Below are positions 37,654-61,171 of a DNA stretch of 64,000 nt, piece after piece. The position numbers were made by a program, and so were the translations under genes. The stretch is taken from contig WFNZ01000023.1 in assembly GCA_015488335.1 (NCBI GenBank), positions 1 to 64,000 on the forward strand, in the 5' to 3' direction. Below the pieces are notes generated by a model, which made no database searches, was not told the origin of the DNA, and saw only the letters and a list, made by a program, of their open reading frames with translations. Position 1 is the first letter of the stretch, and every line of letters begins with the position of its first letter. Source of the stretch: Thermovibrio sp. GTDB lineage: Bacteria; Aquificota; Aquificia; Desulfurobacteriales; Desulfurobacteriaceae.

Positions 37654-38745
37654 TTGGACTTCCACATAGAGAGAGCAAAGATTCTTCCAAAGTCAAATCT
37701 CTGGGGTTTCTTAGAGGGGTTAAAGGGCGTCGCTCCCCTTATAGCTCCAGTAGAGAGGGGAAATAAGACCGTTTTCTCTGAGGTAAATGATATTTCTGAT
37801 GTAACAATTAACTACACCAGGACTGTTCTTCCCCCCAAGAAGTTCTTAGTTCCGTACAGAAGAGTAAGGTTTACTTACTCAACTGGAGAGCTATCATTCT
37901 CCTCAAACTTTAAAGCCCGCGACCAGATAATATTCGGTATCCACTCCTGCGATCTCCACGGTATTTCAATCCTTGACTCTGTTTACCTAAAGGAGAGCCC
38001 TGACCCTCGTTATCTTGAGGTGAGGAAAAAGACTGTTCTTATTGGAATTTCCTGTATGCCCGACGATTACTGTTTCTGCCTTTCAACAGGGACAGCCTTT
38101 CCTGATGGGGCCAACTGGGACCTGTTCTTAACAGATATTGGAGCAGATTACTTTGTATCAATAGGAAGTCCTAAAGGCGATGAACTGATAATAGAACTGA
38201 AGGAGCTCTTTAGAGATATTGAGCGTGAAGATCTGGAGCTCTACAAACGTTCAACCCGAAAGAAGAAAGAGGCCTTTAGAGATAAGAAACTTCCCGACCT
38301 GGAGAGGATTTCTCAGCTGATAGAGCTTGAGTATGAGTCTCCGGTCTGGGATGAAGAGGCGAAGAGATGTCTTTCCTGCGGAACCTGTACAAACGTCTGT
38401 CCTACCTGCTTTTGCTATACCTCTGTAGACGTTCCCGATTTTGAAGGGAAAACTGTAAAGAGAGTTGAGTTCACAACTTCCTGTCAGTATCCCTACTACT
38501 CCTTGGTTGCCGGAGGGCACTACTTCAAGCCAACAAGGACGGCCCGTTTCAGACACCGTTACTACCACAAGTTGGTTGGTTATCCCTACCAGATTGAGAA
38601 GTTGGGTTGCGTGGGCTGTGGCCGTTGTAGTGCAGAGTGCCCGGCAAAGATAAGTATGGTTGAAACTCTTATTAAGCTGAGAGGAGCTGATGAAAAAGAG
38701 TCTGGAAAAGCTACTGAACAAACCTCTGCCGGTAGATCCCTTTAA
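37654..38745 (+). CDS. hydB: group 3b hydrogenase (sulfhydrogenase) beta subunit, Fe-S
   Basis: 363-residue electron-transfer subunit like Pyrococcus HydB and AsrA. The C-terminal third carries two [4Fe-4S] motifs: CLSCGTCTNVCPTCFCY (about 241-257) and CVGCGRCSAECPAK (about 324-337). The N-terminal region includes FGIHSCDLHGI. TTG start behind GGGAGGAAACG. It is the first gene of beta-gamma-delta-alpha, the same order as in archaeal sulfhydrogenases, and overlaps hydG by 56 bp. It passes electrons between the flavin subunit and the nickel subunits or to sulfur. Confidence 0.88.
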   Translation: MDFHIERAKILPKSNLWGFLEGLKGVAPLIAPVERGNKTVFSEVNDISDVTINYTRTVLPPKKFLVPYRRVRFTYSTGELSFSSNFKARDQIIFGIHSCDLHGISILDSVYLKESPDPRYLEVRKKTVLIGISCMPDDYCFCLSTGTAFPDGANWDLFLTDIGADYFVSIGSPKGDELIIELKELFRDIEREDLELYKRSTRKKKEAFRDKKLPDLERISQLIELEYESPVWDEEAKRCLSCGTCTNVCPTCFCYTSVDVPDFEGKTVKRVEFTTSCQYPYYSLVAGGHYFKPTRTARFRHRYYHKLVGYPYQIEKLGCVGCGRCSAECPAKISMVETLIKLRGADEKESGKATEQTSAGRSL

Positions 38746-39568
38746 GCCTCAAAGAGCAGTTATAACAGATGTAGAGGAGCTGGCTCCTGATCACAAGAAG
38801 TTTACTTTCGCTTTTCTTGATGAGAGTCTTGCAAAGGTCTGGGATTACATTCCCGGTCAGTTCGTCATGCTCACTGTTCCAAAGGCTGGAGAGATCCCTA
38901 TTTCCATATGTTCTTCTCCAACCCGTAAAGGTTTTTTTGAGTTAACCGTAAGGAAAGTGGGAAGGAAGACAAAGGTTCTTCACCGACTTAAGCCGGGAGA
39001 TGTTGTTGCAGTTAGAGGACCTTACGGAAACGGCTTTCCCGTTGGGATTATGGAAGGACACAACGTTCTCATTATTGCCGGTGGTCTGGGAATGGCCCCT
39101 TTAAGGTCCTTGGTCTGGTACATCCTGGACAGGCGCAGCCGGTTTAAAGAGGTCTATCTCCTTTACGGAACGAGAAATTATGAGTTTGTTCTCTACAAAG
39201 AGGAGCTCCGTCGCCTCAAAGAAAGGGAAGACATTAAGTGCCTTTTCTGTTTAGACAGGGTAGAAACGCCAGAGGACAGGGAATGGGCCGATATAGAGGG
39301 ACTTCTTACTGAGCTTATTCCACAGGTTAAGCTTGAACCCTCTGAAACTTACGTTGCCGTCTGTGGTCCTCCTGTTGCCTACAAGTTCATCGGAAAGGAG
39401 CTCCTCAAAAACGGTTATCCTGAGAGCCAGATATTCGTCTCTTTAGAGAGGAAGATGGAGTGCGGCATAGGAAAGTGTGGCCACTGTCAGATTGGCTACA
39501 AGTTTGCCTGTGTTGACGGCCCCATCTTCCCTCTGTGGGACACAAAAAACCTTCCGGAGATGCTCTAA
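38690..39568 (+). CDS. hydG: group 3b hydrogenase gamma subunit, FAD/NAD(P)-binding
   Basis: 292-residue ferredoxin-NADP reductase-type subunit. FAD-binding barrel with FVMLTVPKAGEIPISI, NAD(P)-binding part with IAGGLGMAPLRSLVWY (about 126-141), and a C-terminal [2Fe-2S] site CGIGKCGHCQIG plus the next cysteine in FACVDGP, as in dihydroorotate dehydrogenase PyrK. Provides the NAD(P)H site of the hydrogenase. Its ATG follows GAGAGGAG inside the hydB gene; its TAA shares a base with hydD's ATG. Confidence 0.9.
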   Translation: MKKSLEKLLNKPLPVDPFKPQRAVITDVEELAPDHKKFTFAFLDESLAKVWDYIPGQFVMLTVPKAGEIPISICSSPTRKGFFELTVRKVGRKTKVLHRLKPGDVVAVRGPYGNGFPVGIMEGHNVLIIAGGLGMAPLRSLVWYILDRRSRFKEVYLLYGTRNYEFVLYKEELRRLKEREDIKCLFCLDRVETPEDREWADIEGLLTELIPQVKLEPSETYVAVCGPPVAYKFIGKELLKNGYPESQIFVSLERKMECGIGKCGHCQIGYKFACVDGPIFPLWDTKNLPEML

Positions 39569-40338
39569 TGGTGAGAGTAGGGATTATGGGTTTAACGGGC
39601 TGTTCGGGCTGTCAGTGTGAAATCCTCAACTGTGAGGATGCGATAGGTAAGCTCATTGGAAAGGTTGAGTTTGCCTACTTCCCCTTAGCTCAAGATGTGA
39701 ACGACTTTTCAGAGTTTGACATCCTCTTTGTTGAGGGTTCTGTTTCCACAAACCTAGACAGAGAGAAACTGGTTAAGGGTAGAGAGAGAACGAAGATACT
39801 CGTTGCCGTTGGAACCTGTGCCTGTTACGGAGGTGTTCAGTCTCAGAGAAACGATGAGATCTCTTTAGACGAAATGCTTAAGGCTGTTTACGGAGAGAAC
39901 AAACTTGACCTGGAAGTTTTTAAACCTATGCCTCTTAGCGATGTTGTTGATGTTGATTACGAACTTCCTGGTTGTCCTTTAGATAAGAGGCAGTTTGTCT
40001 ACACCGTTGCTTCACTCCTGAATGGAGTTGAGCCTTTCTTCCCCAAAATCCCTGTCTGCCACGAGTGTAAGCTTAGTGAGACTGACTGTTTGCTTCTTAA
40101 AGGAATTCCCTGTCAGGGGCCTGTTTCGTTCTCTGGCTGTGGAGCTCCCTGCACCTCAGCCGGCGTAGGATGTCAGGGGTGCAGAGGGAACTGCGACTTC
40201 CCGAACTTTGACGAGATTCTCTCCATCTATCGGGACATCGGTCTCTCTTTTGACGATTCCGTGAAGTTCTTAAAGGTCTTCCGAGGAAAAACAATTTCCG
40301 GTTTAAAAGTGGGGTTTTCCGATGAAAAGGGAGCTTAA
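39568..40338 (+). CDS. hydD: group 3b [NiFe] hydrogenase delta (small) subunit
   Basis: 256-residue small subunit. Proximal cluster ligands appear in GLTGCSGCQCEIL (about 8-20), VGTCACYGG (about 90) and PGCPLDKRQF (about 141). The C-terminal half has additional Fe-S cysteines (CHECKLSETDC, SGCGAPCTSAGVGCQGC), as in group 3 enzymes. ATG overlaps the hydG stop (TAATG). Overlaps hydA by 17 bp. Relays electrons from the active site to HydB/HydG. Confidence 0.9.
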   Translation: MVRVGIMGLTGCSGCQCEILNCEDAIGKLIGKVEFAYFPLAQDVNDFSEFDILFVEGSVSTNLDREKLVKGRERTKILVAVGTCACYGGVQSQRNDEISLDEMLKAVYGENKLDLEVFKPMPLSDVVDVDYELPGCPLDKRQFVYTVASLLNGVEPFFPKIPVCHECKLSETDCLLLKGIPCQGPVSFSGCGAPCTSAGVGCQGCRGNCDFPNFDEILSIYRDIGLSFDDSVKFLKVFRGKTISGLKVGFSDEKGA

Positions 40339-41626
40339 CGTTAACCACCTTTCAAGGGTAGAGGGCCACGGTGCCGTTGATATTGTTTTTGAGAATGAAA
40401 GGCTTAAAGAGATAAGGCTTAGATTTACAGAGGGGCCTCGGTTCTTTGAGTTTATTACGAGAGAAAGGCTCTACTCTGAAATTCCAAAGATCGTTTCCCG
40501 TATCTGCGGCATTTGTTACGTTTCCCACAGGCTTGCTTCTGCCTTTGCCGTTGAAGATGCCTTTGGCGTTAAAGTTCCGAGGGAAGTGGAACTCCTCAGA
40601 AGGCTTTTGGTAGTTGGAGAATACCTGGAGAGCCACGCACTTCACCTCTACTTCCTTGCCCTTCCCGACTACATGGGATATCCCGGTGCCATTCAGATGG
40701 CCAAAGACTATCCCAACGTCGTTAAGAGGGGATTCAGAATTAAAGAGCTTGGGAACAAAATAATGAAATTATTAGGAGGGAAGACAGTTCACGGTGAGAA
40801 CATTCTGGTAGGCGGTTTTGCCTCTTTTCCAACTGAAGAAGCCCTTGAGTCTGTTGGAAATGAGCTGAGATCCATTATCCCTGAGCTTGAGGCTACGCTT
40901 TCCCTGTTTGATTCCCTTGACTATCCTGAGTTCACGTCAGAAGTTTCCGTTGCCGTTTCGGTTGATTCTAAGGACGTTACAGAGTTTTCCGACACTGTTT
41001 CCACCTCTGATGGAGTCCGGTTTACGAGAAAGGAGTACGAGCTTTTCATCAGGGAAGAGACCGTTCCGTATACAACTGCAAAAGTTTCAAGGTTTGAAGA
41101 GGAGCCGTTTCTTATAGGTCCCCTTTCAAGAGTGAACCTCCACCTTGAGGAGCTCCACCCGGCCGTAAAGAAAGAGATATCACTTCTGAAAACAGATTTT
41201 CCCTCTAAAAACTCTTTTCACAGCAACGTTGCAAGGGCTGTTGAGCTGTTAAACGTTGCCTACAGGGGAGTAGAGATAGTTGAGGAGCTCCTTAACTGTG
41301 AACGTACTCCTTCCAAAATTTCTGTTGAGCCCAGAGCTGGAACGGGCTACGGCATAAAGGAAGCTCCGAGGGGGACACTCTACCACAGGTACTCCTTCTC
41401 AGATGACGGTCACTGCACCGGTGCAAACATCATAACTCCAACAGCCCAGCTTCAGGCGGCCATTGAGAGTGATTTGAGGAACCTTACCGAAACCTACAGC
41501 TCCGTTTCAGATAGAGAACTCAGAAAGCTTGCGGAGATGCTCATAAGGGCTTACGACCCGTGAATTGCCTGTGCAGTCCACCAGTTCGGTGGAGAGTTTG
41601 AAACTGTGAGGATAGAGAGGTTGTAA
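40322..41626 (+). CDS. hydA: group 3b [NiFeSe] hydrogenase alpha (large) subunit with TGA-encoded selenocysteine
   Basis: Catalytic H2-activating subunit, 434 residues when the in-frame TGA at 41561-41563 is read through. N-terminal motifs: SRVEGHG (11-17) and the L1 nickel ligands in RICGICYVSH (C62, C65). The conventional frame stops after AYDP, exactly where the C-terminal L2 motif DPCxxCxxH should begin; beyond the TGA the same frame continues IACAVHQFGGEFETVRIERL, so residue 414 is U in DP-U-IACAVH with C417 and H420 intact. The restored stop TAA (41624-41626) overlaps the ATG of the next gene, the coupling style used elsewhere in this cluster. A SECIS-like hairpin follows the TGA. The last residues after VR may be removed during maturation, as in archaeal relatives. 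Ordinary annotation would give a 413-residue truncated protein. A TGC/TGT sequencing error is the main alternative. Confidence 0.9.
41561..41593 (+). promoter_or_regulatory. bacterial SECIS-like element at the hydA TGA
   Basis: After the TGA, TCCACC (41577-41582) pairs with GGTGGA (41588-41593) around a five-base loop AGTTC, a 6-bp perfect stem. The loop starts 19 bases after the TGA and contains G-T, close to the 18-base spacing and GU-bearing loop of the E. coli fdhF element recognised by SelB. CAGT (41574-41577) and ACTG (41603-41606) might extend it. Confidence 0.65.
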
Positions 41627-42111
41627 TGGTGAAATTGGGAGAACTTCAGGAGTGTGCGCTCCTTAAAAACTTTACTAATGATGAATTAAAGGAGCTGGCC
41701 GGCTACTTTGACCTTATAACCTTTGGTAAAGGGGAGCTCCTCTTTGACGAGTTTGACCAGCCGGAGTGTTTTTACCTGATAAAGGAGGGAAAGGTTGGCC
41801 TTTACAGGAGTGACAACTTTGGCCGGTGGACTAAGGTTGCGGTTGTTTACGGCGGAACCCCCTTAGGAGAGTGTGCTTTCTTCCTTAATTCTCCCCACTC
41901 TTTGAGGGCAGTTGCAGAGTCTTCTGTAAAGGCGTTCAGGATAGACAGGGCTTCTTTTGATGAGCTCAGGGAGAAAAGGCCGGAGCTCCTTGTAAAGTTC
42001 ATGGAGATTGTTCTCTCTGTTCTCGCCGAAAGGCTTAAAACCGAAGACAGGAAATTTTCTGAACTGTGCGGATTCTTTTCCGTTCCGGGAGGAGGCAGAT
42101 GGAGAAGATAG
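41626..42111 (+). CDS. cyclic-nucleotide-binding-domain protein without DNA-binding domain
   Basis: 161-residue protein made of one CRP-type cyclic-nucleotide-binding domain (FYLIKEGKVGLYR, GGTPLGECAFFLNSPHSLRAVAESSVKAFRID) and a helix, with no helix-turn-helix. The GE pair is present, but an arginine in the usual phosphate-binding position is not obvious; the ligand may not be cAMP. Its ATG overlaps the restored hydA stop and its 3' end overlaps the next gene by 13 bp, so it is co-translated between the two hydrogenases and may gate one of them. Confidence 0.8.
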   Translation: MVKLGELQECALLKNFTNDELKELAGYFDLITFGKGELLFDEFDQPECFYLIKEGKVGLYRSDNFGRWTKVAVVYGGTPLGECAFFLNSPHSLRAVAESSVKAFRIDRASFDELREKRPELLVKFMEIVLSVLAERLKTEDRKFSELCGFFSVPGGGRWRR

Positions 42112-43970
42112 TCTACTCTCTCTTTTTGGTTCCCTGGGTGCTGGCCCTTGCAGTCTTTCTTCTGCCGGGAGCCCGTTTCCACAGGTTGAGGCAGCTGATT
42201 ACCTTTCTCTCGCTTCCTGCTCTATCCTTTCTTACCTATTTGGTCTGGAACGGCCATCTTCCTCTGCAGATAGAAACTCCTCGGTGGTTAAATCTGGCCT
42301 TTACCGTTTACGACTACGGTCTTCTTCTCTATTTCCTCTATCAGGGTATAAAGTTCAGGGATTTCCTGGTAACTGTTCTGGCACTCTTTCAGCTCTTTCT
42401 CCTCACCTGGATTCTTCTGATAATGCCTGAAAGTTCCGTTCCCGACTTCTACGTAGACAGGCTTTCGGCCTTTATGTTCCTGATAGTTTCAACTGTTGGA
42501 ACCCTTATCTGTATCTACGCAACCAAGTATATGGAACAGGAGAACTTAGAGAGAGAAAATAGGTTTGTTGCTATTCTCCTCTGGTTCTTAGGGGTTATGA
42601 ACCTTGCCGTTTCTGTAAACAACATTGAGTGGTTCTTTGCACTTTTTGAAACAACAACTCTTGCTTCTTACATCCTCATCAGGTTCAGGTGGGATGAAGT
42701 AAGTATTAAAAACGCCCTCAGAGCTCTCTGGATGAACCAGATAGGGGGAATAGCCATCCTTTTAGGCCTTCTCTTTGGAATAAAGTACTACAGTTTTACC
42801 CACTTTACTCAGTTCCTCTCCCTATCTGGAAAGCCGGCCATTGTTATGATTCCTTTAGGCTTCCTTGCCGTTTCAGCCCTTGTTAAAGGTGCTCAAATGC
42901 CCTTCCACAGGTGGCTCCTTGGAGCTATGGTTGCTCCAACTCCCGTTAGCGCAATTCTCCACTCGGCTACTATGGTTAAGATAGCTCCTTACCTCATACT
43001 CAGGCTCTCACCGGTAATAAAGGGAACACTTCTTGCAAAGCTCCTCATTATTACTACCGGTTTTGTCTTTGTCGGTGCAGGTCTTTTAGCACTTACACAG
43101 GAAAACTTTAAGAAGATCCTCGCTTACTCAACCATTTCCCTTTTAGGTCTTATGATGCTTACTGCCAGTATGGGGAGCTCCATGGCTATTCTTGCTTCTC
43201 TTACCCTCATTCTCTTTCACGCCGTTGTTAAAGCCCTTCTCTTTATGGAAGCCGGGGTTATGGAGAAGCTATTTAAAGCCAAGTATATAGAGGATATAAG
43301 GAGGCTTGTAGAGAGAGCTCCCATCACAGTTGCCTTCACTTCTATCGGTTTTATGAGCATGACCATTGTTCCCTACGGGATTTTCGTTTCAAAGTGGATG
43401 GCCATTGAAGAAGCTTCAAACTTCCTCTCCCACGGGGCTTACGTTGGTTCAATCATCTTTATGGCCACAGGTGGCGTAATCCTCGCCCTTCTCTACTTTA
43501 AGGTTATAGGTGTTATGACCAGGAAAAGGGGAGAGTTTTTAAAGTTTCAGTTAGAAAAAGTCCCGTTTGCGTACCTTTTCTCAACCGTTCCCCTGGTTCT
43601 TTTCGTTATTGTTGGTTCCATCTTTATAGCCAAGCTCCTCTGTCTTTCAGTTAACCCGGTCGTTGAAGCGGTTATTGGAACTCCAGCTCCCATCATAGCC
43701 AAAGGGCTTACTCTGATCACTCCTGTTTCGGAGCTCTACGGGTGGCAGATAATCGGTGCCTTTGTTCTACTTCTCATCGTTCCAATACTTGCATACTTTG
43801 TCCACTTTACGGGAACAGACAGGGTTTACGAGTACACCTGTGGCGAAAAACTTGAACTGAACATAGGAACTTACAACTTCTTCTGCATTCAGGTTGTTGA
43901 ACCCTTTGTTGAGACGGCAGCTGTTGCTCTTTTCATCCTTACCCTTGTTCTCGGGGGAGGTCTCGTATGA
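42099..43970 (+). CDS. group 4 hydrogenase proton/ion-pumping subunit (NuoL/HyfB/MrpA-like)
   Basis: 623-residue polytopic membrane protein of the complex I antiporter family. ATG at 42099 has GGGAGGAGG upstream. Landmarks: a membrane segment with WFFALFETTTLASYILIRFRW, the antiporter core lysine region VKGAQMPFHRWLLGAMVAPTPVSAILHSATMVK (about 268-300), and LLALTQENFKKILAYSTISLLGLM. The C-terminus ends with GTYNFFCIQVVEPFVETAAV, as in HyfB/EchA-like subunits. Couples hydrogenase electron flow to H+ or Na+ transport. Confidence 0.88.
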   Translation: MEKIVYSLFLVPWVLALAVFLLPGARFHRLRQLITFLSLPALSFLTYLVWNGHLPLQIETPRWLNLAFTVYDYGLLLYFLYQGIKFRDFLVTVLALFQLFLLTWILLIMPESSVPDFYVDRLSAFMFLIVSTVGTLICIYATKYMEQENLERENRFVAILLWFLGVMNLAVSVNNIEWFFALFETTTLASYILIRFRWDEVSIKNALRALWMNQIGGIAILLGLLFGIKYYSFTHFTQFLSLSGKPAIVMIPLGFLAVSALVKGAQMPFHRWLLGAMVAPTPVSAILHSATMVKIAPYLILRLSPVIKGTLLAKLLIITTGFVFVGAGLLALTQENFKKILAYSTISLLGLMMLTASMGSSMAILASLTLILFHAVVKALLFMEAGVMEKLFKAKYIEDIRRLVERAPITVAFTSIGFMSMTIVPYGIFVSKWMAIEEASNFLSHGAYVGSIIFMATGGVILALLYFKVIGVMTRKRGEFLKFQLEKVPFAYLFSTVPLVLFVIVGSIFIAKLLCLSVNPVVEAVIGTPAPIIAKGLTLITPVSELYGWQIIGAFVLLLIVPILAYFVHFTGTDRVYEYTCGEKLELNIGTYNFFCIQVVEPFVETAAVALFILTLVLGGGLV

Positions 43971-44809
43971 GTTACTGGACAGCCTTTATACTGACTCTCT
44001 TTTCTCCTGTTATAGGGGGCTTTATCTACGGGCTTGAGAGGATAGTAAGGGCCAGAATGCAGGGACGTGTCGGCCCTCCACTACTTCAGCCCTTCTACGA
44101 CTTTTTCAAGCTGATGGATAAAAGGAGCATAATAATTCACTCTTTCCACGCTTTTATGGGTGTTATGTACCTGATCGGAACCTGGTTTGCCCTCTTTGTC
44201 CTCCTTTCAGGGGGAGACCTCCTGATTGCCATCTTCTTCCACGTCCTCTCTCTGGCCTTTTTAGTTGTTGGCGGTTTCAGCGTCCGTTCTCCCTATTCGG
44301 TTATTGGGGCGATGAGGGAACTCCTCCACATGGTTGCATACGAGCCCCTCTACGTTCTGAGTGCCACAGCTCTCTACCTCGTTACGGGAACGTTCCAGGT
44401 TTCCGGCATTCTCCACTCAGAGCACGTGCCTTTAATTTACCTGCCTCTCCTCTTTATCGCTGTTCTCTTTTCCCTTCCTGCAATCCTGAAGAAATCACCT
44501 TTTGACACAGCAGAAGCTCACCAGGAGATAATCGGTGGGCCTGAAATAGAATACTCTGGAAAGTTCTACGAAGCCGTCTACACTGCAAAGTGGATAGAGT
44601 ACGTCTATGCCTTCTTCTTCATATTCCTCTTTGCCGGAGGGAACCACATTCTGGGAGCTCTCCTTATCATCTTTGCCTTCTTCTTCTTCAATCTCCTTGA
44701 TAACGTAACTGCCAGGGTCAACTTCAGGCAGATGGTTGCCTTTCACTGGTACATACTGATTCCCCTTGCTGTAACAAATCTCATGCTTATAGCTCTCTGG
44801 AGGAGCTGA
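43967..44809 (+). CDS. group 4 hydrogenase membrane subunit (NuoH/EchB/HycD-like)
   Basis: 280 residues, eight predicted helices. It has the NuoH-family signature ERIVRARMQGRVGPPLLQPFYDFFKL (about 24-49) and the loop KKSPFDTAEAHQEIIGGPEIEYSG (about 166-189), which connects the membrane arm to the nickel subunit. Overlaps the preceding gene by four bases (ATGA) and shares one base with the small-subunit gene. Confidence 0.92.
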   Translation: MSYWTAFILTLFSPVIGGFIYGLERIVRARMQGRVGPPLLQPFYDFFKLMDKRSIIIHSFHAFMGVMYLIGTWFALFVLLSGGDLLIAIFFHVLSLAFLVVGGFSVRSPYSVIGAMRELLHMVAYEPLYVLSATALYLVTGTFQVSGILHSEHVPLIYLPLLFIAVLFSLPAILKKSPFDTAEAHQEIIGGPEIEYSGKFYEAVYTAKWIEYVYAFFFIFLFAGGNHILGALLIIFAFFFFNLLDNVTARVNFRQMVAFHWYILIPLAVTNLMLIALWRS

Positions 44810-45339
44810 TGGACTTTAAAAGCTTTAGGAAAAAGTCTCCCTGGATACTCCACTACAACACCGGAAGCTGTAACGGCTGCGACATTGAGATTCTGGCCTG
44901 CCTCTCTCCAAAGTACGATGTTGAAAGGTTTGGAATCCTCAACAGAGGAAACCCGAAGCAGTCCGACATCCTTCTTGTAACCGGCCCTGTAACAAAGAGG
45001 GCGAAAGAGAGACTTCTGCGTCTTTACTTTGAAATGCCCGAGCCAAAAGTAGTTGTTGCCGTTGGAGCCTGCGCCTGTTCCGGTGGGGTCTTTCGCCACA
45101 TGTACAACGTGGAGAACGGAGTAGATAAGGTTATTCCCGTTGATGTCTACGTTCCCGGCTGTGCTGCAAGGCCAGAGGCCATAATAGACGGTCTTATAAA
45201 GGCCTTAGAGATTCTAAAGTCTAAAGGGAAAGACCTTGAACTACCCAGCTGGTGCAAAGCCGACGTGAAACCCCCCGTTAACAGGGCAAAACTTCTAAAC
45301 AGCTGTCTGGAGGAGTTCCATGGTTGTAGAAGAGATTAG
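44809..45339 (+). CDS. group 4 [NiFe] hydrogenase small subunit (NuoB/EchC/HycG-like)
   Basis: 176 residues holding the proximal [4Fe-4S] cluster: TGSCNGCDIEI (C21, C24), VGACACSGG (about 86) and VPGCAARPEAIIDGLIKAL (about 119). Shorter than group 3 small subunits and without extra clusters, as usual for group 4. Starts at TGATG with the previous gene and overlaps the next by 20 bp. Confidence 0.92.
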   Translation: MDFKSFRKKSPWILHYNTGSCNGCDIEILACLSPKYDVERFGILNRGNPKQSDILLVTGPVTKRAKERLLRLYFEMPEPKVVVAVGACACSGGVFRHMYNVENGVDKVIPVDVYVPGCAARPEAIIDGLIKALEILKSKGKDLELPSWCKADVKPPVNRAKLLNSCLEEFHGCRRD

Positions 45340-45664
45340 GGTTCCCTTAAGGGACGTGAGGAGGGCAATAAAGGAATTTTACAACCCAAGTGAGTGGCAC
45401 TTTATAACTGTGAACGGCGTTGACCTTGGCGGAAAAGTTGAGCTTAAGTGGTTTTTCACGAAATATGGAGAGAAAGAGCACTTTAAGGTAGTTACTACAG
45501 AAGCTTCTTACGACGATGAAATTCCAACAATAACCTACCTTATCCCTTCTGCCTGGATTTCGGAGTGGGAACTTGCAGATCTCTTTGGCCTGAACGTTGA
45601 GGGCGCAAAGAAGGGTCTCTTCTTAGACCCTGAAAGTCCCCAAGCCCCCTTAAGGAGAGGTTAG
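45320..45664 (+). CDS. group 4 hydrogenase NuoC/EchD-like subunit
   Basis: 114 residues corresponding to the NuoC (30 kDa) domain: WHFITVNGVDL, a central beta-sheet, then PSAWISEWELADLFGLNVEGAKK, where NuoC proteins have the ExE-D-G interaction motif. ATG inside the small-subunit gene. One base separates its stop from the large-subunit ATG. Forms the interface of peripheral and membrane arms. Confidence 0.85.
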   Translation: MVVEEIRVPLRDVRRAIKEFYNPSEWHFITVNGVDLGGKVELKWFFTKYGEKEHFKVVTTEASYDDEIPTITYLIPSAWISEWELADLFGLNVEGAKKGLFLDPESPQAPLRRG

Positions 45665-45665
45665 T

Positions 45666-46751
45666 ATGGGAAAGAGGATAACCGTTCCTTTTGGAAGTCA
45701 GCACGTTGCCCTTCCAGAACCTGTAAGGTTTGTATTCCAGACCGAGAACGAGAAGATTGTTGATGTTGAAGTTGATGTGGGTTACGTCCACAGGGGAATT
45801 GAAAAGGCCTGTGCAACAAAATTCAAATACATGCAGGTTGGTTACGTTGTTGCAAGGGTTTGCGGTCTCTGTTCTATTTCCCATACGCTGGGTTACGTTA
45901 CAGCCGTAGAGAGGCTTATGGGTGTTGAGGTTCCCAAAAGGGCTCTCTACCTGAGGCTTCTCGTCAGTGAGCTTGACCGGATCCACTCTCACCTACTTGC
46001 CATGGGACATACGGCTGAAGTTGCCGGGTACGAGAACCTGTTTATGCAGACCTTCCGCCACAGAGAACTTGTTATGGAGATGTTGGAGCTCCTTACCGGC
46101 AACAGGGTTCAGTTTGACTACGCCTGTATAGGTGGAGTTAACAGGGATTTAACTTCAGATGTTGAGAAAGTTTTAAGAGGAAAGCTGAAGGTTTTGGAAG
46201 AGAAAGCTCAATGGTTAAAAGATGTGTATGAGAACGACTTTTCTCTGAACCTCAGGTGGAAGGGAATAGGCGCTGTTACAGAAGAGATGGCAAAAGAGAT
46301 GAACGTTGTTGGCCCCCCTGCAAGGGCTGTAGGTCTTAAAACAGACGTTAGAGCTGAGTTTGATTATTTACCTTTTAAGGAAGTTGGCTACAGAATGGTT
46401 GTTCTGAAAGGTGGCTCAATTTATGAAAGAAACTTGGTTAGGGCTCTTGAGATTCTCAACTCAATAGAGATGTGTTGGAACATCTTAGACGGCCTTCCGG
46501 AGGGAGATATAAAGGTTCCTGTAAAAGGTCTTCCTGAAGGAGAGATGTTCGTCAGGATTGAAGCCCCCAGAGGAGAGCTCTTCTACTACATCAGAGGTTC
46601 TAAAAAGCTGATTTTGGACAGGGTAAGGATAAGGGTTCCTACCTTTGCCAACATCCCTGTGATGAAAGAGCTCTTTATTGGAATGGACTACGCCGATGTT
46701 CCGGCAACTGTTATAAGCTTTGACCCCTGTCTTTCCTGTACTGCAAGGTAG
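45666..46751 (+). CDS. group 4 [NiFe] hydrogenase large subunit (NuoD/EchE/HycE-like)
   Basis: 361 residues. L1 nickel motif RVCGLCSISH has C66 and C69; L2 is FDPCLSCTAR with C355 and C358, all cysteines, so this second hydrogenase is a normal [NiFe] enzyme. The protein ends three residues after C358, so no C-terminal peptide is left to be cleaved. HRGIEKACATKFKYMQ and SELDRIHSHLLAMGH are NuoD-like. Predicted to couple ferredoxin-linked H2 chemistry to ion transport. Confidence 0.93.
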   Translation: MGKRITVPFGSQHVALPEPVRFVFQTENEKIVDVEVDVGYVHRGIEKACATKFKYMQVGYVVARVCGLCSISHTLGYVTAVERLMGVEVPKRALYLRLLVSELDRIHSHLLAMGHTAEVAGYENLFMQTFRHRELVMEMLELLTGNRVQFDYACIGGVNRDLTSDVEKVLRGKLKVLEEKAQWLKDVYENDFSLNLRWKGIGAVTEEMAKEMNVVGPPARAVGLKTDVRAEFDYLPFKEVGYRMVVLKGGSIYERNLVRALEILNSIEMCWNILDGLPEGDIKVPVKGLPEGEMFVRIEAPRGELFYYIRGSKKLILDRVRIRVPTFANIPVMKELFIGMDYADVPATVISFDPCLSCTAR

Positions 46752-46760
46752 GAGGGAACG

Positions 46761-47081
46761 TTGAGAGTTTGGGCTGTTTTAACCACCTTTCTCCTTATGA
46801 CTTCTCCCGTTCTTGCCTGTAGCAGCGACTGTTATCAGTGCCACTCAAACATACCCAATGATAAAAACCATAAGGTTTTAAAAACCTGTATTCAGTGTCA
46901 TCCCAACCATTCTGAAAAGGGAATGTCTGGATGCGGTTCAGACTGTTTTGACTGTCACGATTACAGAAAGGTGATGAGTTTGTCTAAAGCCCACAGAGTT
47001 TTAGTCAGGTGTATTGGGTGTCATAAAAGGTTTAAAGAGAGGGAGCTCCCGCCTTACTACAGAGAACTGTTGGGAGGTTAG
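46761..47081 (+). CDS. tetrahaem cytochrome c inside the group 4 hydrogenase operon
   Basis: 106 residues with four CXXCH haem sites: CYQCH, CIQCH, CFDCH and CIGCH. The N-terminus is an export signal (VWAVLTTFLLMTSPVLA) followed by Cys20, so the start could be a plain Sec site or a lipobox (VLAC). TTG start with GGAGGGAACG upstream. It is located outside the cytoplasmic membrane yet encoded between the large subunit and the ferredoxin subunit of a cytoplasm-facing hydrogenase, an arrangement not part of known Ech or Hyc operons. Confidence 0.85.
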   Translation: MRVWAVLTTFLLMTSPVLACSSDCYQCHSNIPNDKNHKVLKTCIQCHPNHSEKGMSGCGSDCFDCHDYRKVMSLSKAHRVLVRCIGCHKRFKERELPPYYRELLGG

Positions 47082-47083
47082 CC

Positions 47084-47491
47084 TTGAAAGAGATGCTTAT
47101 AGAGACTATTAAAAACCTCTTTTCAAAGCCTGTAACTGTTAAATATCCGCAAGAGCCCTCACCCCCACCTGCCAACTACAGAGGGTTAATAGTTTACAAA
47201 GAGGAGCTCTGTATTTTCTGCACCAAGTGTGAAATGGTCTGCCCACCTGGGGCTATAAGGTTTACCTACGGAGAAGATGGAAGTAAGAAGTACCACTACA
47301 ACCCCTACCTCTGCATCTACTGTGGAGAGTGTGTAAGGGCTTGTCCCAAACCCGGATGTCTTACTCAAGTTGAGAAGACAGCACCACCAGATAGTTCAAT
47401 TCCCAACTGGGATGAACTTGAGAGGAGGGCTGAAAAGAGTAAAAAGGCCTTTCTGAAGGCAAAGGCTATTGCGAAGAAGTCGGGTAGTTAG
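47084..47491 (+). CDS. group 4 hydrogenase ferredoxin subunit (NuoI/EchF/HycB-like)
   Basis: 135 residues with two [4Fe-4S] motifs, CIFCTKCEMVCPPGAI (about 44-59) and CIYCGECVRACPKPGC (about 79-94), like NuoI/EchF. Its TTG start is taken because GGGAGG precedes it; ATG three codons later is possible. The C-terminal 40 residues are lysine-rich. It delivers electrons between ferredoxin and the small subunit. Last gene of the hydrogen locus; converges on a minus-strand gene, overlapping by four bases. Confidence 0.9.
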   Translation: MKEMLIETIKNLFSKPVTVKYPQEPSPPPANYRGLIVYKEELCIFCTKCEMVCPPGAIRFTYGEDGSKKYHYNPYLCIYCGECVRACPKPGCLTQVEKTAPPDSSIPNWDELERRAEKSKKAFLKAKAIAKKSGS

Positions 47492-59179: not shown

Positions 59180-59925
59180 GGATTCTGGAGATGGATTTAG
59201 GGGCAGTTACTTTAATTGTTGCTGTAACCTTTTCTGCCATAGGTATTGTTGCTGGCATTCTAATATCAAAATTCCTTTCAGGTGGGGAACAACCCCAACC
59301 TGATTTAACTGAAGTCAAAGAGAGGGTAGAGGGGATTTCAGACAGGATAACCCTTTTAGTTGATGAACTGAAAGAAAAACTAAAGAAGCTCCAGTCTGAA
59401 AGGATTGAGGAGATAAGGAGGGACGTTGATGACCTTCTTTCAGAAATTGAGAGGTTAAAGAGTTCCCTCCACAAGCTTGACCTTTCGGAAGACTCAATAT
59501 CGGCTCTGGATAGGGCTGAAAAGCTTTTGCAGGAAGTAGAGTTTAGGTTGCCAAAAATTGACGAATCACTGCTTACCCAGGTAAAAGATAGCCTTCTCAT
59601 TCTGAGAAACGATGTTGAAACGCTACTCTCCAGAAATAGAGAGAGTCAAACGCAAGAATCTCCTTCTCCTAACATTGATCTGTCTGCGATTGAATCTGTT
59701 ATTACCTCCCTTGACTCTGCAATCGCTCTTTCAAAACGCCTCAACGCTCTCCTTTTGAAAGGCGAACTTACAGCTCTGGCCGATTCTTTCAAAAATGAGG
59801 AGATAGCTTCACTGGTCAGAGAGTTAGATGATCAGGCTCTCAACTCTAAAGAGATAGTTGTTCTACTTGAAGATGTAAGGAAAAAACTGGAAGAGGTGAG
59901 GGATGAAGCTTCTCTACGTAGATGA
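59176..59925 (+). CDS. membrane-anchored coiled-coil protein, unknown
   Basis: 249 residues. One N-terminal membrane helix (AVTLIVAVTFSAIGIVAGILI) followed by a long charged, heptad-rich cytoplasmic or periplasmic region (LVDELKEKLKKLQSERIEEIRRDVDDLL and later repeats). ATG at 59176 overlaps the maf stop; ATG at 59191 has a better-placed GAGG and may be the true start. It overlaps the following response regulator by 23 bp, so they may form a signalling pair. No family recognised. Confidence 0.65.
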   Translation: MRILEMDLGAVTLIVAVTFSAIGIVAGILISKFLSGGEQPQPDLTEVKERVEGISDRITLLVDELKEKLKKLQSERIEEIRRDVDDLLSEIERLKSSLHKLDLSEDSISALDRAEKLLQEVEFRLPKIDESLLTQVKDSLLILRNDVETLLSRNRESQTQESPSPNIDLSAIESVITSLDSAIALSKRLNALLLKGELTALADSFKNEEIASLVRELDDQALNSKEIVVLLEDVRKKLEEVRDEASLRR

Positions 59926-60694
59926 TAAGAAAACGTGGCACAAACTGTTTGAGATAGTCCTTTCCCTAAGGGGGGTGGATGTTCTTCATGCCTATACTCC
60001 AAAGGAAGCGTTGAACGTCGCTTCTTTAGAGAAACCCGACGTGGCCGTTGTTGATGTTTCCATCTCTAACGGAACGGGCTACGATGTTATTCCAGATCTT
60101 ATTAGGCTTGGTATTCCGGTTATCCTTATAGGCTATAAGGCTGAAGGTTTTGATAGAGAAAAGGCCCTCTCTATGGGGGCTTACGGAGCCCTTGAGAAAC
60201 CCTTTACAGTTGAGGAGTTCTTAGACCTGTTAAGAGAGCTTAAGAAGAAAGCTCCTGAGCTAAAAGAACACTTTGAACTTACTGTTCCTCAGGAAGGGGA
60301 ATTTGAAGTTGTTAACCTTGAACCGGAAACCCACGAGTTGGAGTCAACACAACCGGAACTCCCTGTTATTCCTGTAGAAAGTGAGTTGGAAGAGAAAGTG
60401 CCTGTTGTTCCCGTTGAGGTTGAAGAAGAGGAAGAGGAAAAAGTGCCTGTAGAGTCTGTTGAGGAGAAGACAGAATCTACCGAAGAGGAGCTCCCCACAC
60501 CTGCTCCAGAGCCTGTTGTTGCTGAAGCTAAAGAAGAGGTTAAACGTAAAGCTGAAGAGGTATCTGGAATCACCGTTCCGGAGGAGAAGGTAGAGGAGAT
60601 AATAAGAGAAATTGCCTGGGAAGTTGTCCCTGAAATAGCGGAAAAAGTTATCAGGGAAGAGATTGAGAAACTGATAAGGAGCCGTCTTGCCTGA
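59903..60694 (+). CDS. response regulator with Glu/Pro-rich linker and helical tail
   Basis: 263 residues. Receiver domain (1-115): VDDKK with acidic D6/D7, phospho-acceptor aspartate in VAVVDVS (D50-51 region), and K in LEKPFT. A low-complexity Glu/Pro/Val linker (about 130-215) leads to a C-terminal helix, PEEKVEEIIREIAWEVVPEIAEKVIREEIEKLI, a tail known in regulators of motility and polarity in other phyla. No DNA-binding or enzyme domain. Paired with the upstream coiled-coil gene. Confidence 0.8.
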   Translation: MKLLYVDDKKTWHKLFEIVLSLRGVDVLHAYTPKEALNVASLEKPDVAVVDVSISNGTGYDVIPDLIRLGIPVILIGYKAEGFDREKALSMGAYGALEKPFTVEEFLDLLRELKKKAPELKEHFELTVPQEGEFEVVNLEPETHELESTQPELPVIPVESELEEKVPVVPVEVEEEEEEKVPVESVEEKTESTEEELPTPAPEPVVAEAKEEVKRKAEEVSGITVPEEKVEEIIREIAWEVVPEIAEKVIREEIEKLIRSRLA

Positions 60695-61171
60695 ATGTTC
60701 AGGGTGGGGATAGGATATGACGTTCATGCCCTTGTACCAGGCTACGACCTGATTATTGGTGGCGTCAAAATCCCCCACGATAAAGGTCTTAAAGGCCATT
60801 CAGATGCAGACGTTCTCGTTCACGCTATCTGCGATGCCCTTTTGGGAGCTCTCTCCCTTGGAGATATAGGCCGGCATTTTCCCGATACAGATCCCCAGTT
60901 TAAAGGGATCTCAAGTCTCAAACTTCTATCCTACGTGTCAGAACTTGTCAGAGAAAACAGCTATACCGTTGTTAACGTTGATTCCGTTGTAGTTGCCCAG
61001 AGGCCAAAGCTTTCTCCTTTTATTGAACAGATGAAAAAGAACATTTCGTCAGTTCTTGGTATACTTCCTTCTCAAGTTTCTGTTAAGGCTACCACAACCG
61101 AGAAGTTGGGTTTTGAAGGTAGGGAAGAGGGAATTTCTGCACAGGCTGTTGTTCTCTTAAAACGGCTTTAA
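60695..61171 (+). CDS. ispF: 2-C-methyl-D-erythritol 2,4-cyclodiphosphate synthase
   Basis: MEP-pathway zinc enzyme, 158 residues. [13 protein letters not shown] (metal-binding DVH at 8-10), [47 protein letters not shown], and the C-terminal [25 protein letters not shown]. Starts directly after the response-regulator stop. Second isoprenoid gene of the window besides ispG. Confidence 0.96.

Follow-up and report, generated by a model that had tools for sequence, protein, structure and literature searches.

Predicted selenocysteine nickel ligand in the NAD(P)-linked group 3b hydrogenase of Thermovibrio and other Desulfurobacteriaceae

The analysed window is a stretch of 64,000 nucleotides from Thermovibrio sp., family Desulfurobacteriaceae, phylum Aquificota (assembly GCA_015488335.1, contig WFNZ01000023.1, positions 1 to 64,000). 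Its forward strand carries four hydrogenase genes, in the order hydB, hydG, hydD and hydA, followed by a gene for a CRP-like protein; these genes, together with the features of hydA that are discussed here, are listed below.

37654..38745, + strand: hydB, beta subunit (4Fe-4S, sulfhydrogenase beta); NCBIfam ShyB 310 and HydB 303 bits (cut-offs of 690 and 750 not reached), Pfam Fer4_22; the TTG start is the choice of the ORF lister
38690..39568, + strand: hydG, gamma subunit (FAD/NAD(P)-binding reductase); NCBIfam PRK08345 337, ShyC 276 and HydG 270 bits (below the curated cut-offs), Pfam NAD_binding_1, FAD_binding_6 and DHODB_Fe-S_bind
39568..40338, + strand: hydD, delta (small) subunit; NCBIfam HydD 186 and ShyD 180 bits (below the curated cut-offs), Pfam Oxidored_q6; ATG 39568 read from the sequence
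40322..41626, + strand: hydA, alpha (catalytic) subunit, 434 amino acids when read through the TGA; Pfam NiFeSe_Hases, closest solved relatives SHI-type alpha subunits
41561..41563, + strand: in-frame TGA, predicted selenocysteine 414 and nickel ligand; this codon is TGA in 14 genomes of the family and TGT or TGC in 4
41577..41593, + strand: SECIS-like hairpin, beginning 13 nt after the TGA; stem TCCACC 41577-41582, loop AGTTC 41583-41587, stem GGTGGA 41588-41593
41582..41623, + strand: C-terminal tail QFGGEFETVRIERL, residues 421-434; its place after the L2 histidine and a HycI-type peptidase gene in the genome predict its removal by cleavage after His420
41626..42111, + strand: gene for a CRP-like cNMP-binding protein (Pfam cNMP_binding), which starts within the hydA stop codon (one-base overlap)

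The frame that opens at ATG 40322 contains a single in-frame stop, the TGA at codon 414 (41561-41563). Under translation table 11 the ORF ends there, at 413 amino acids (40322-41563), so that standard annotation loses the C-terminus, as the first-pass annotation had anticipated, and with it two nickel ligands. Read through, HydA is 434 residues long: it ends in ...RAYDPUIACAVH, then QFGGEFETVRIERL, then TAA 41624-41626, whose last base also opens the next ATG (41626). Re-reading of the sequence has confirmed the earlier description, i.e. a TGA at the position that opens the C-terminal (L2) nickel motif, 20 further codons that continue the frame (U414-IACAVH and the tail), and a TAA that overlaps the following ATG.

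The ligand pattern of [NiFeSe] enzymes is present at the level of sequence: U414-IAC417 is accompanied by an intact first motif, R60-IC62GIC65, and both are invariant in our alignment A1, which was also used for the structure model. This alignment has 17 rows (9 of the 14 genes with TGA, 3 of 4 genes with cysteine from a genus of the family that we designate g3, 5 of 9 from family f3 and none of 2 from family f5; some tails are clipped); D412, P413, residue 414, I415, C417 and H420 are invariant in 17/17 rows when selenocysteine is written as C, the column of residue 414 being cysteine or selenocysteine throughout. Elsewhere in the window TGA is a normal stop, ending 17 of the 56 non-overlapping ORFs of at least 150 amino acids (the truncated hydA ORF is counted among the 17), and the genetic code as a whole is thus unchanged. 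At 60692-60697, the TGA of a response-regulator-like ORF (59903-60694) abuts the in-frame ATG of an IspF-like gene (both named from their translations); this is an ordinary gene junction, which a naive scan might mistake for read-through.

The operon hydBGDA, with its FAD/NAD(P) and 4Fe-4S subunits, has the composition of group 3b, and the first-pass proposal of an NAD(P)-linked enzyme of the sulfhydrogenase type, in the order beta-gamma-delta-alpha, agrees with the gene order, the protein families and the fold. The best NCBIfam matches of HydA, HydB and HydD are sulfhydrogenase subunits, and that of HydG is PRK08345, the cytochrome-c3 hydrogenase gamma subunit. HydA scores below the equivalog cut-offs (ShyA 354.8 bits against 700, HydA 317.1 against 880), presumably set for close orthologues; these are still its two best matches. 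Its best sequences in the PDB, at 281-283 bits, are four entries of the sulfhydrogenase 1 alpha subunit of Pyrococcus furiosus, together with the alpha subunit of a cytosolic [NiFe] hydrogenase, all of group 3b; MvhA (197 bits) and the [NiFeSe] enzymes of group 1 (about 113 bits) come next. In the AlphaFold2 model (pLDDT 87.4, below 50 in the tail at 416-434) the fold is closest to SHI alpha subunits, which occupy ranks 1-3, the best being that of P. furiosus SHI (TM 0.91, 35% identity). By operon, best PDB sequences and modelled fold, HydA matches a group 3b alpha subunit, for which NAD(P)-dependent H2 activity is predicted. In the available text of two studies, the enzymes of Thermovibrio ammonificans and Desulfurobacterium thermolithotrophum are called group 3b or group 3 NAD(P)+-dependent, HydABCD (PMC5441870, PMC12724263).

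The arrangement extends beyond the window: homologues of HydD and HydG are located upstream in 18/18 family loci that show the site. Within the short flanks available, a homologue of the CRP-like protein follows hydA in 11/14 loci with TGA and in 0/4 with a cysteine codon; as a guess, this protein may regulate the hyd-ech cluster. Next after hydBGDA and the CRP-like gene, at 42066-47491, our reading of the ORFs finds a complex I-like, group 4 (Ech-type) hydrogenase cluster, and a cluster of this kind likewise follows the hyd genes of T. ammonificans, according to the available text of PMC5441870.

Our family search has covered 22 genomes, the window's own included. A full-length HydA frame with exactly one stop, a TGA, occurs in 14 of them (codons read), and TGT or TGC with no stop in four, all from genus g3 (G009-G012); the site was not found in the other four, of which G014 holds residues 1-218 only and was left out of the codon counts, and G004, G016 and G020 are without an orthologue at the level of this search. 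Beyond what the first-pass annotation could see, selenocysteine is thus predicted in 14 of the 18 family genomes where the site is readable, one genus having cysteine. The same TGA occurs in 14 genomes at protein identities down to 61%, and it is therefore not the error of one assembly. T. ammonificans HB-1 and D. thermolithotrophum BSA are matched among the carriers. Across the phylum, HydA is matched at E <= 1e-60 in 48 of 136 genomes; in the 29 that lie outside the family there is no stop within the match, and the codon is cysteine in all 11 that were read (families f3 and f5).

A motif scan of a contig collection has returned at least 119 loci with a selenocysteine motif (in eight of them fewer than 150 amino acids of open frame precede the motif, mostly at the end of a stretch). 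A HydG homologue lies beside the motif in four of these at least 119 loci, all from Desulfurobacteriaceae (Desulfurobacterium or Thermovibrio), and three of the four also have HydB. Among the matches listed, the other 115 comprise 93 with YDPUx[SA]CATH, 21 with [FY]DPUxAC[AS]VH and one with neither (L068, Lokiarchaeota, 25 amino acids upstream); judged by motif, we take the first class to be group 3c-like and the second group 1-like. No HydB or HydG match accompanies any of the 93 YDPUx[SA]CATH loci among the matches listed, some of whose stretches are short, and selenocysteine in group 3b was not seen outside the family among the matches listed from these at least 119 loci. As a separate observation, ten loci with FDPUxAC(A/S)VH and a TGA come from Thermoleophilia, Actinomycetes or Actinomycetota (L072, L081, L082, L085, L094, L100, L125, L132, L140 and L160); by motif they would be group 1-like selenocysteine hydrogenases, in lineages that are not known as sulfate reducers or methanogens.

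The search of the full genome for selA, selB, selC (tRNA-Sec) and selD that the first-pass annotation had suggested has found all four, over the curated cut-offs, in the genome to which the window belongs (70 contigs with 1.645 Mb in total, 99.3% complete): the tRNA-Sec, for which the cut-off is 47 bits, scores 81.7, with ARAGORN in agreement (tRNA-SeC(tca)), and selB, selA and selD score 444, 619 and 377 bits. The selD gene (G000:C31:11962-12888, L048) has an in-frame TGA of its own, within ASG-U-GAKLSP, followed at 12 nt by AGCCC-GGUC-GGGCU, i.e. by a stem with a small loop that contains a G, at a spacing that resembles that of the hydA hairpin. In 21 of the 22 family genomes selD has one in-frame TGA, the place of which was read in the window's genome only; among the 22 searched, selD was not found in G003. 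Across the 14 genomes with the hydA TGA, a tRNA-Sec over the cut-off is found in 12 (missing from G005 and G021), selB in 12 (missing from G003 and G005) and selD in 13 (missing from G003), always with a single in-frame TGA; all three occur together in 11 and at least one of them in 14/14. The genomes with gaps are drafts, G021 being 99% complete and 4% contaminated, and the absence of tRNA-Sec from G021 and G005 possibly reflects gaps in the assemblies.

Genus g3, with cysteine at the site, has tRNA-Sec, selB and a selD with TGA in 4/4 genomes; it is probably able to use selenocysteine and yet has cysteine in HydA, and the machinery alone is hence no predictor of selenocysteine at HydA 414. 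With regard to other potential sites in the window's genome, eight matches of the formate dehydrogenase family are free of in-frame stops, and two other hydrogenase large subunits (C70:32.5-39 kb) have cysteine, not selenocysteine; one other weak hydrogenase match that carries a stop, read in G000:C70, has it directly after the L2 histidine.

Bacterial SECIS elements are described, in the accessible parts of two papers, as stem-loops that follow the UGA immediately and whose small apical loop contains a G (PMC1088965, PMC1794560), and a stem-loop of this description, close after the UGA and with a G in its small loop, is found in 14/14 hydA genes with TGA (in one the end pair is lost). All 14 contain, starting 13 bases after the UGA, GTCCACCAGTT(C/T)GGTGG, i.e. 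UCCACC-AGUU(C/U)-GGUGG in the RNA, and GTCCACCAGTTYGGTGG is present in 14/14 genes with TGA and in 0/4 with a cysteine codon; the stem appears in the folds of all 14. The last stem base is A in 13, L030 reading GGT with loss of the end pair, and where the loop has U instead of C, an extra A-U pair can form. The codons of the stem are constrained: V419, H420, Q421 and G423 use one codon each in 14/14 genes, and G424 is GGA in 13/14, against a background in which only 2 of 159 degenerate columns with invariant amino acid upstream of residue 414 use one codon throughout (14 genes). The codon of F422, in the loop, varies, and that of C417 is invariant though outside the stem. At the level of protein, QFGG (421-424) is invariant in 14/14, and each position from 425 on has 3-6 different residues; the end of the constrained stretch coincides with the end of the hairpin.

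VHQFGG can be encoded in 512 ways; when these are ranked by hairpin stability, the variant with TTT that occurs in the genes falls among the best 2, that with TTC among the best 4 and that of L030 among the best 14. Weighted by codon usage, the chance of so stable a hairpin is 0.012 for a single gene. The free fold of the 63 nt that begin with the CC before the TGA is weak (z -0.78; 41 of 200 dinucleotide shuffles are at least as stable), so the argument for the hairpin rests on the enumeration of synonymous encodings and on codon invariance; the stem is nearly constant and hence offers no compensatory changes (covariation) in its support. Rfam gives no SECIS match at hydA, and none at the selD control locus either. 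Codons of the tail that is predicted to be removed supply 12 of the 17 hairpin bases, and the hairpin would thus cost the mature enzyme little.

Taken together, we consider it very probable, at roughly 0.94, that HydA is the catalytic subunit of a hydrogenase of group 3b (NAD(P)-linked, of the sulfhydrogenase type) and that its terminal nickel ligand is selenocysteine, inserted by means of the machinery and the hairpin. Selenocysteine at HydA 414 is a very well supported prediction, and the earlier claim of a selenocysteine hydrogenase is strengthened by the selenocysteine genes, by the pairing of cysteine and selenocysteine at the site and by the conserved SECIS-like hairpin. A TGA that acts as a true stop, in a pseudogene, through a sequencing error, or in a working HydA of 413 residues that does without the last two nickel ligands, would agree with the clean table 11 ORF and with the normal use of TGA in the window; such a stop would, however, cost two nickel ligands, this stop is the only one in each of the 14 frames, and IACAVHQFGG is unchanged after the TGA in 14/14 genes, a conservation by which this explanation is in practice refuted and by which we are left giving it almost no weight. 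It is also very improbable that the UGA is read through with no selenium involved, whether by a near-cognate tRNA or by cysteine delivered through the selenocysteine machinery when selenium is scarce, to give mostly a cysteine or tryptophan enzyme: cysteine does occupy the site in g3 and in the 11 read relatives outside the family, and a product loaded with cysteine might be active, but the same genome holds the selenocysteine machinery and a selD of the selenocysteine type, and, in the family genes read, the hairpin is confined to those with a TGA at the site.

A further question is whether the enzyme has been recorded before. The first-pass annotation did not know of a described selenoprotein class of this kind in the Aquificota, and our look-up has likewise found no published selenocysteine group 3b hydrogenase: in the available text of the open-licence literature, no report of selenocysteine in a group 3b or Desulfurobacteriaceae hydrogenase was found among the matches listed. 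The eLife paper on T. ammonificans (PMC5441870) mentions a selenocysteine tRNA and also a HydA of group 3b that it describes as 'unique' to the family; in its available text it makes no link between them. In another D. thermolithotrophum strain, HR11, the abundance of HydABCD protein is higher at 2 uM H2 than at 43 uM, in a medium that contains Na2SeO4, and no word that begins with 'selen' occurs in the available text of that paper (PMC12724263). The enzyme may already have been counted in selenoprotein surveys under 'F420-reducing hydrogenase alpha', which we regard as unlikely, though far from negligible: Peng et al. 2016 (PMC5029168) count 31 such selenoproteins in 26 organisms, which the available text does not name, and the genomes of T. 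ammonificans and D. thermolithotrophum were public by 2016 (PMC3570795, PMC3368423, available text); against this, no selenocysteine group 3b enzyme is named in the literature found, as far as its available text goes, and selenium is not mentioned for the orthologous enzymes in the main texts of the two papers that treat them (PMC5441870, PMC12724263), in the parts available.

If the main reading, selenocysteine at residue 414, is correct, SelA, SelD and tRNA-Sec would make Sec-tRNA, which SelB, aided by the hairpin that starts 13 bases downstream, would deliver to UGA 414, and the ribosome would continue for 20 more codons. The full-length precursor would then take up Ni-Fe(CN)2CO via C62, C65, U414 and C417, presumably with a nickel-selenium bond at U414. 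In the maturation of [NiFe] hydrogenases the tail is cleaved after the L2 histidine; a peptidase of the HycI type, for which the window's genome has a gene at G000:C70:39520-39951, would cut HydA after His420. HydA would join HydB, HydG and HydD, and electrons would pass between H2 and NAD(P). The benefit of selenocysteine may lie in faster turnover or, once the enzyme has been oxidised, in easier recovery, in line with other [NiFeSe] enzymes, where it speeds turnover or protects the nickel (see also the available text of PMC13188914).

A tree of 29 HydA rows, from which the L2 motif and the tail were excluded, places the 14 selenocysteine rows on one side of a branch with support 84/85, found in 90% of 200 bootstrap trees; they adjoin the cysteine rows of g3 and f5, and the cysteine rows of f3 lie further out. 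The tree is rooted on a long branch, and its arrangement of f5 with g3 departs from the named families. A single gain of selenocysteine from cysteine is the simplest reading of this tree, favoured with moderate support. At residues 421-424 the cysteine genes of g3 read MFGA or MFKA, against QFGG in the selenocysteine genes (Met421/Gln, Ala424/Gly). A fuller scenario, to which we would give slightly less than even odds, is that cysteine changed to selenocysteine beside a sister genus that still has cysteine; that the signal arose largely in the discarded tail, as a cheap cradle for a SECIS element; that Met421->Gln and Ala424->Gly were needed by the hairpin; and that the selenocysteine enzyme scavenges H2, making NAD(P)H at low H2 in vent autotrophs. 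T. ammonificans and D. thermolithotrophum are sulfur- or nitrate-reducing autotrophs with growth optima at 70-75 C (PMC3368423, PMC3570795, available text). The predicted enzyme would bring the [NiFeSe] type to heat-loving vent autotrophs and to the NAD(P)-linked subgroup, a heat-stable selenium enzyme being of practical interest; with two cultured type strains among the carriers, the prediction is directly testable.

Among known systems, the soluble hydrogenase I of P. furiosus (SHI, group 3b; PDB 9nez, 9nf0, 9e15), a four-subunit [NiFe] enzyme with cysteine, shares the alpha fold and belongs to the best-scoring sequence set, but its first L2 ligand is cysteine where the ligand here is coded by UGA. 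The cysteine-type HydA proteins of g3 (G009-G012) and f5 (G129, G133) are direct homologues, 48-55% identical, with HydD upstream in five of six loci, the sixth (L056) being cut inside hydA by the contig end; those of g3 read CISCSVHMF, as opposed to UIACAVHQFGG, with TGT or TGC at the site and no hairpin. The group 1 [NiFeSe] enzymes (Desulfomicrobium baculatum 1cc1, Desulfovibrio vulgaris 5jsh), whose PDB titles also name the selenium form, share selenocysteine as the first L2 nickel ligand, but are periplasmic, have no NAD(P) subunit, and reach only 22-24% identity and TM 0.70-0.73 to the HydA model. The selenocysteine hydrogenases of groups 3a and 3c (FruA, VhuU and bacterial MvhA-like proteins) are F420- or Hdr-linked, and share with HydA selenocysteine in a UxxC motif and membership of the cytoplasmic group 3; their UxxC motifs are tabulated in the available text of PMC13188914. 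Selenocysteine at this ligand is already known in hydrogenase groups 1, 3a and 3c, so what the predicted enzyme adds is a new subgroup and a new lineage for a known chemistry.
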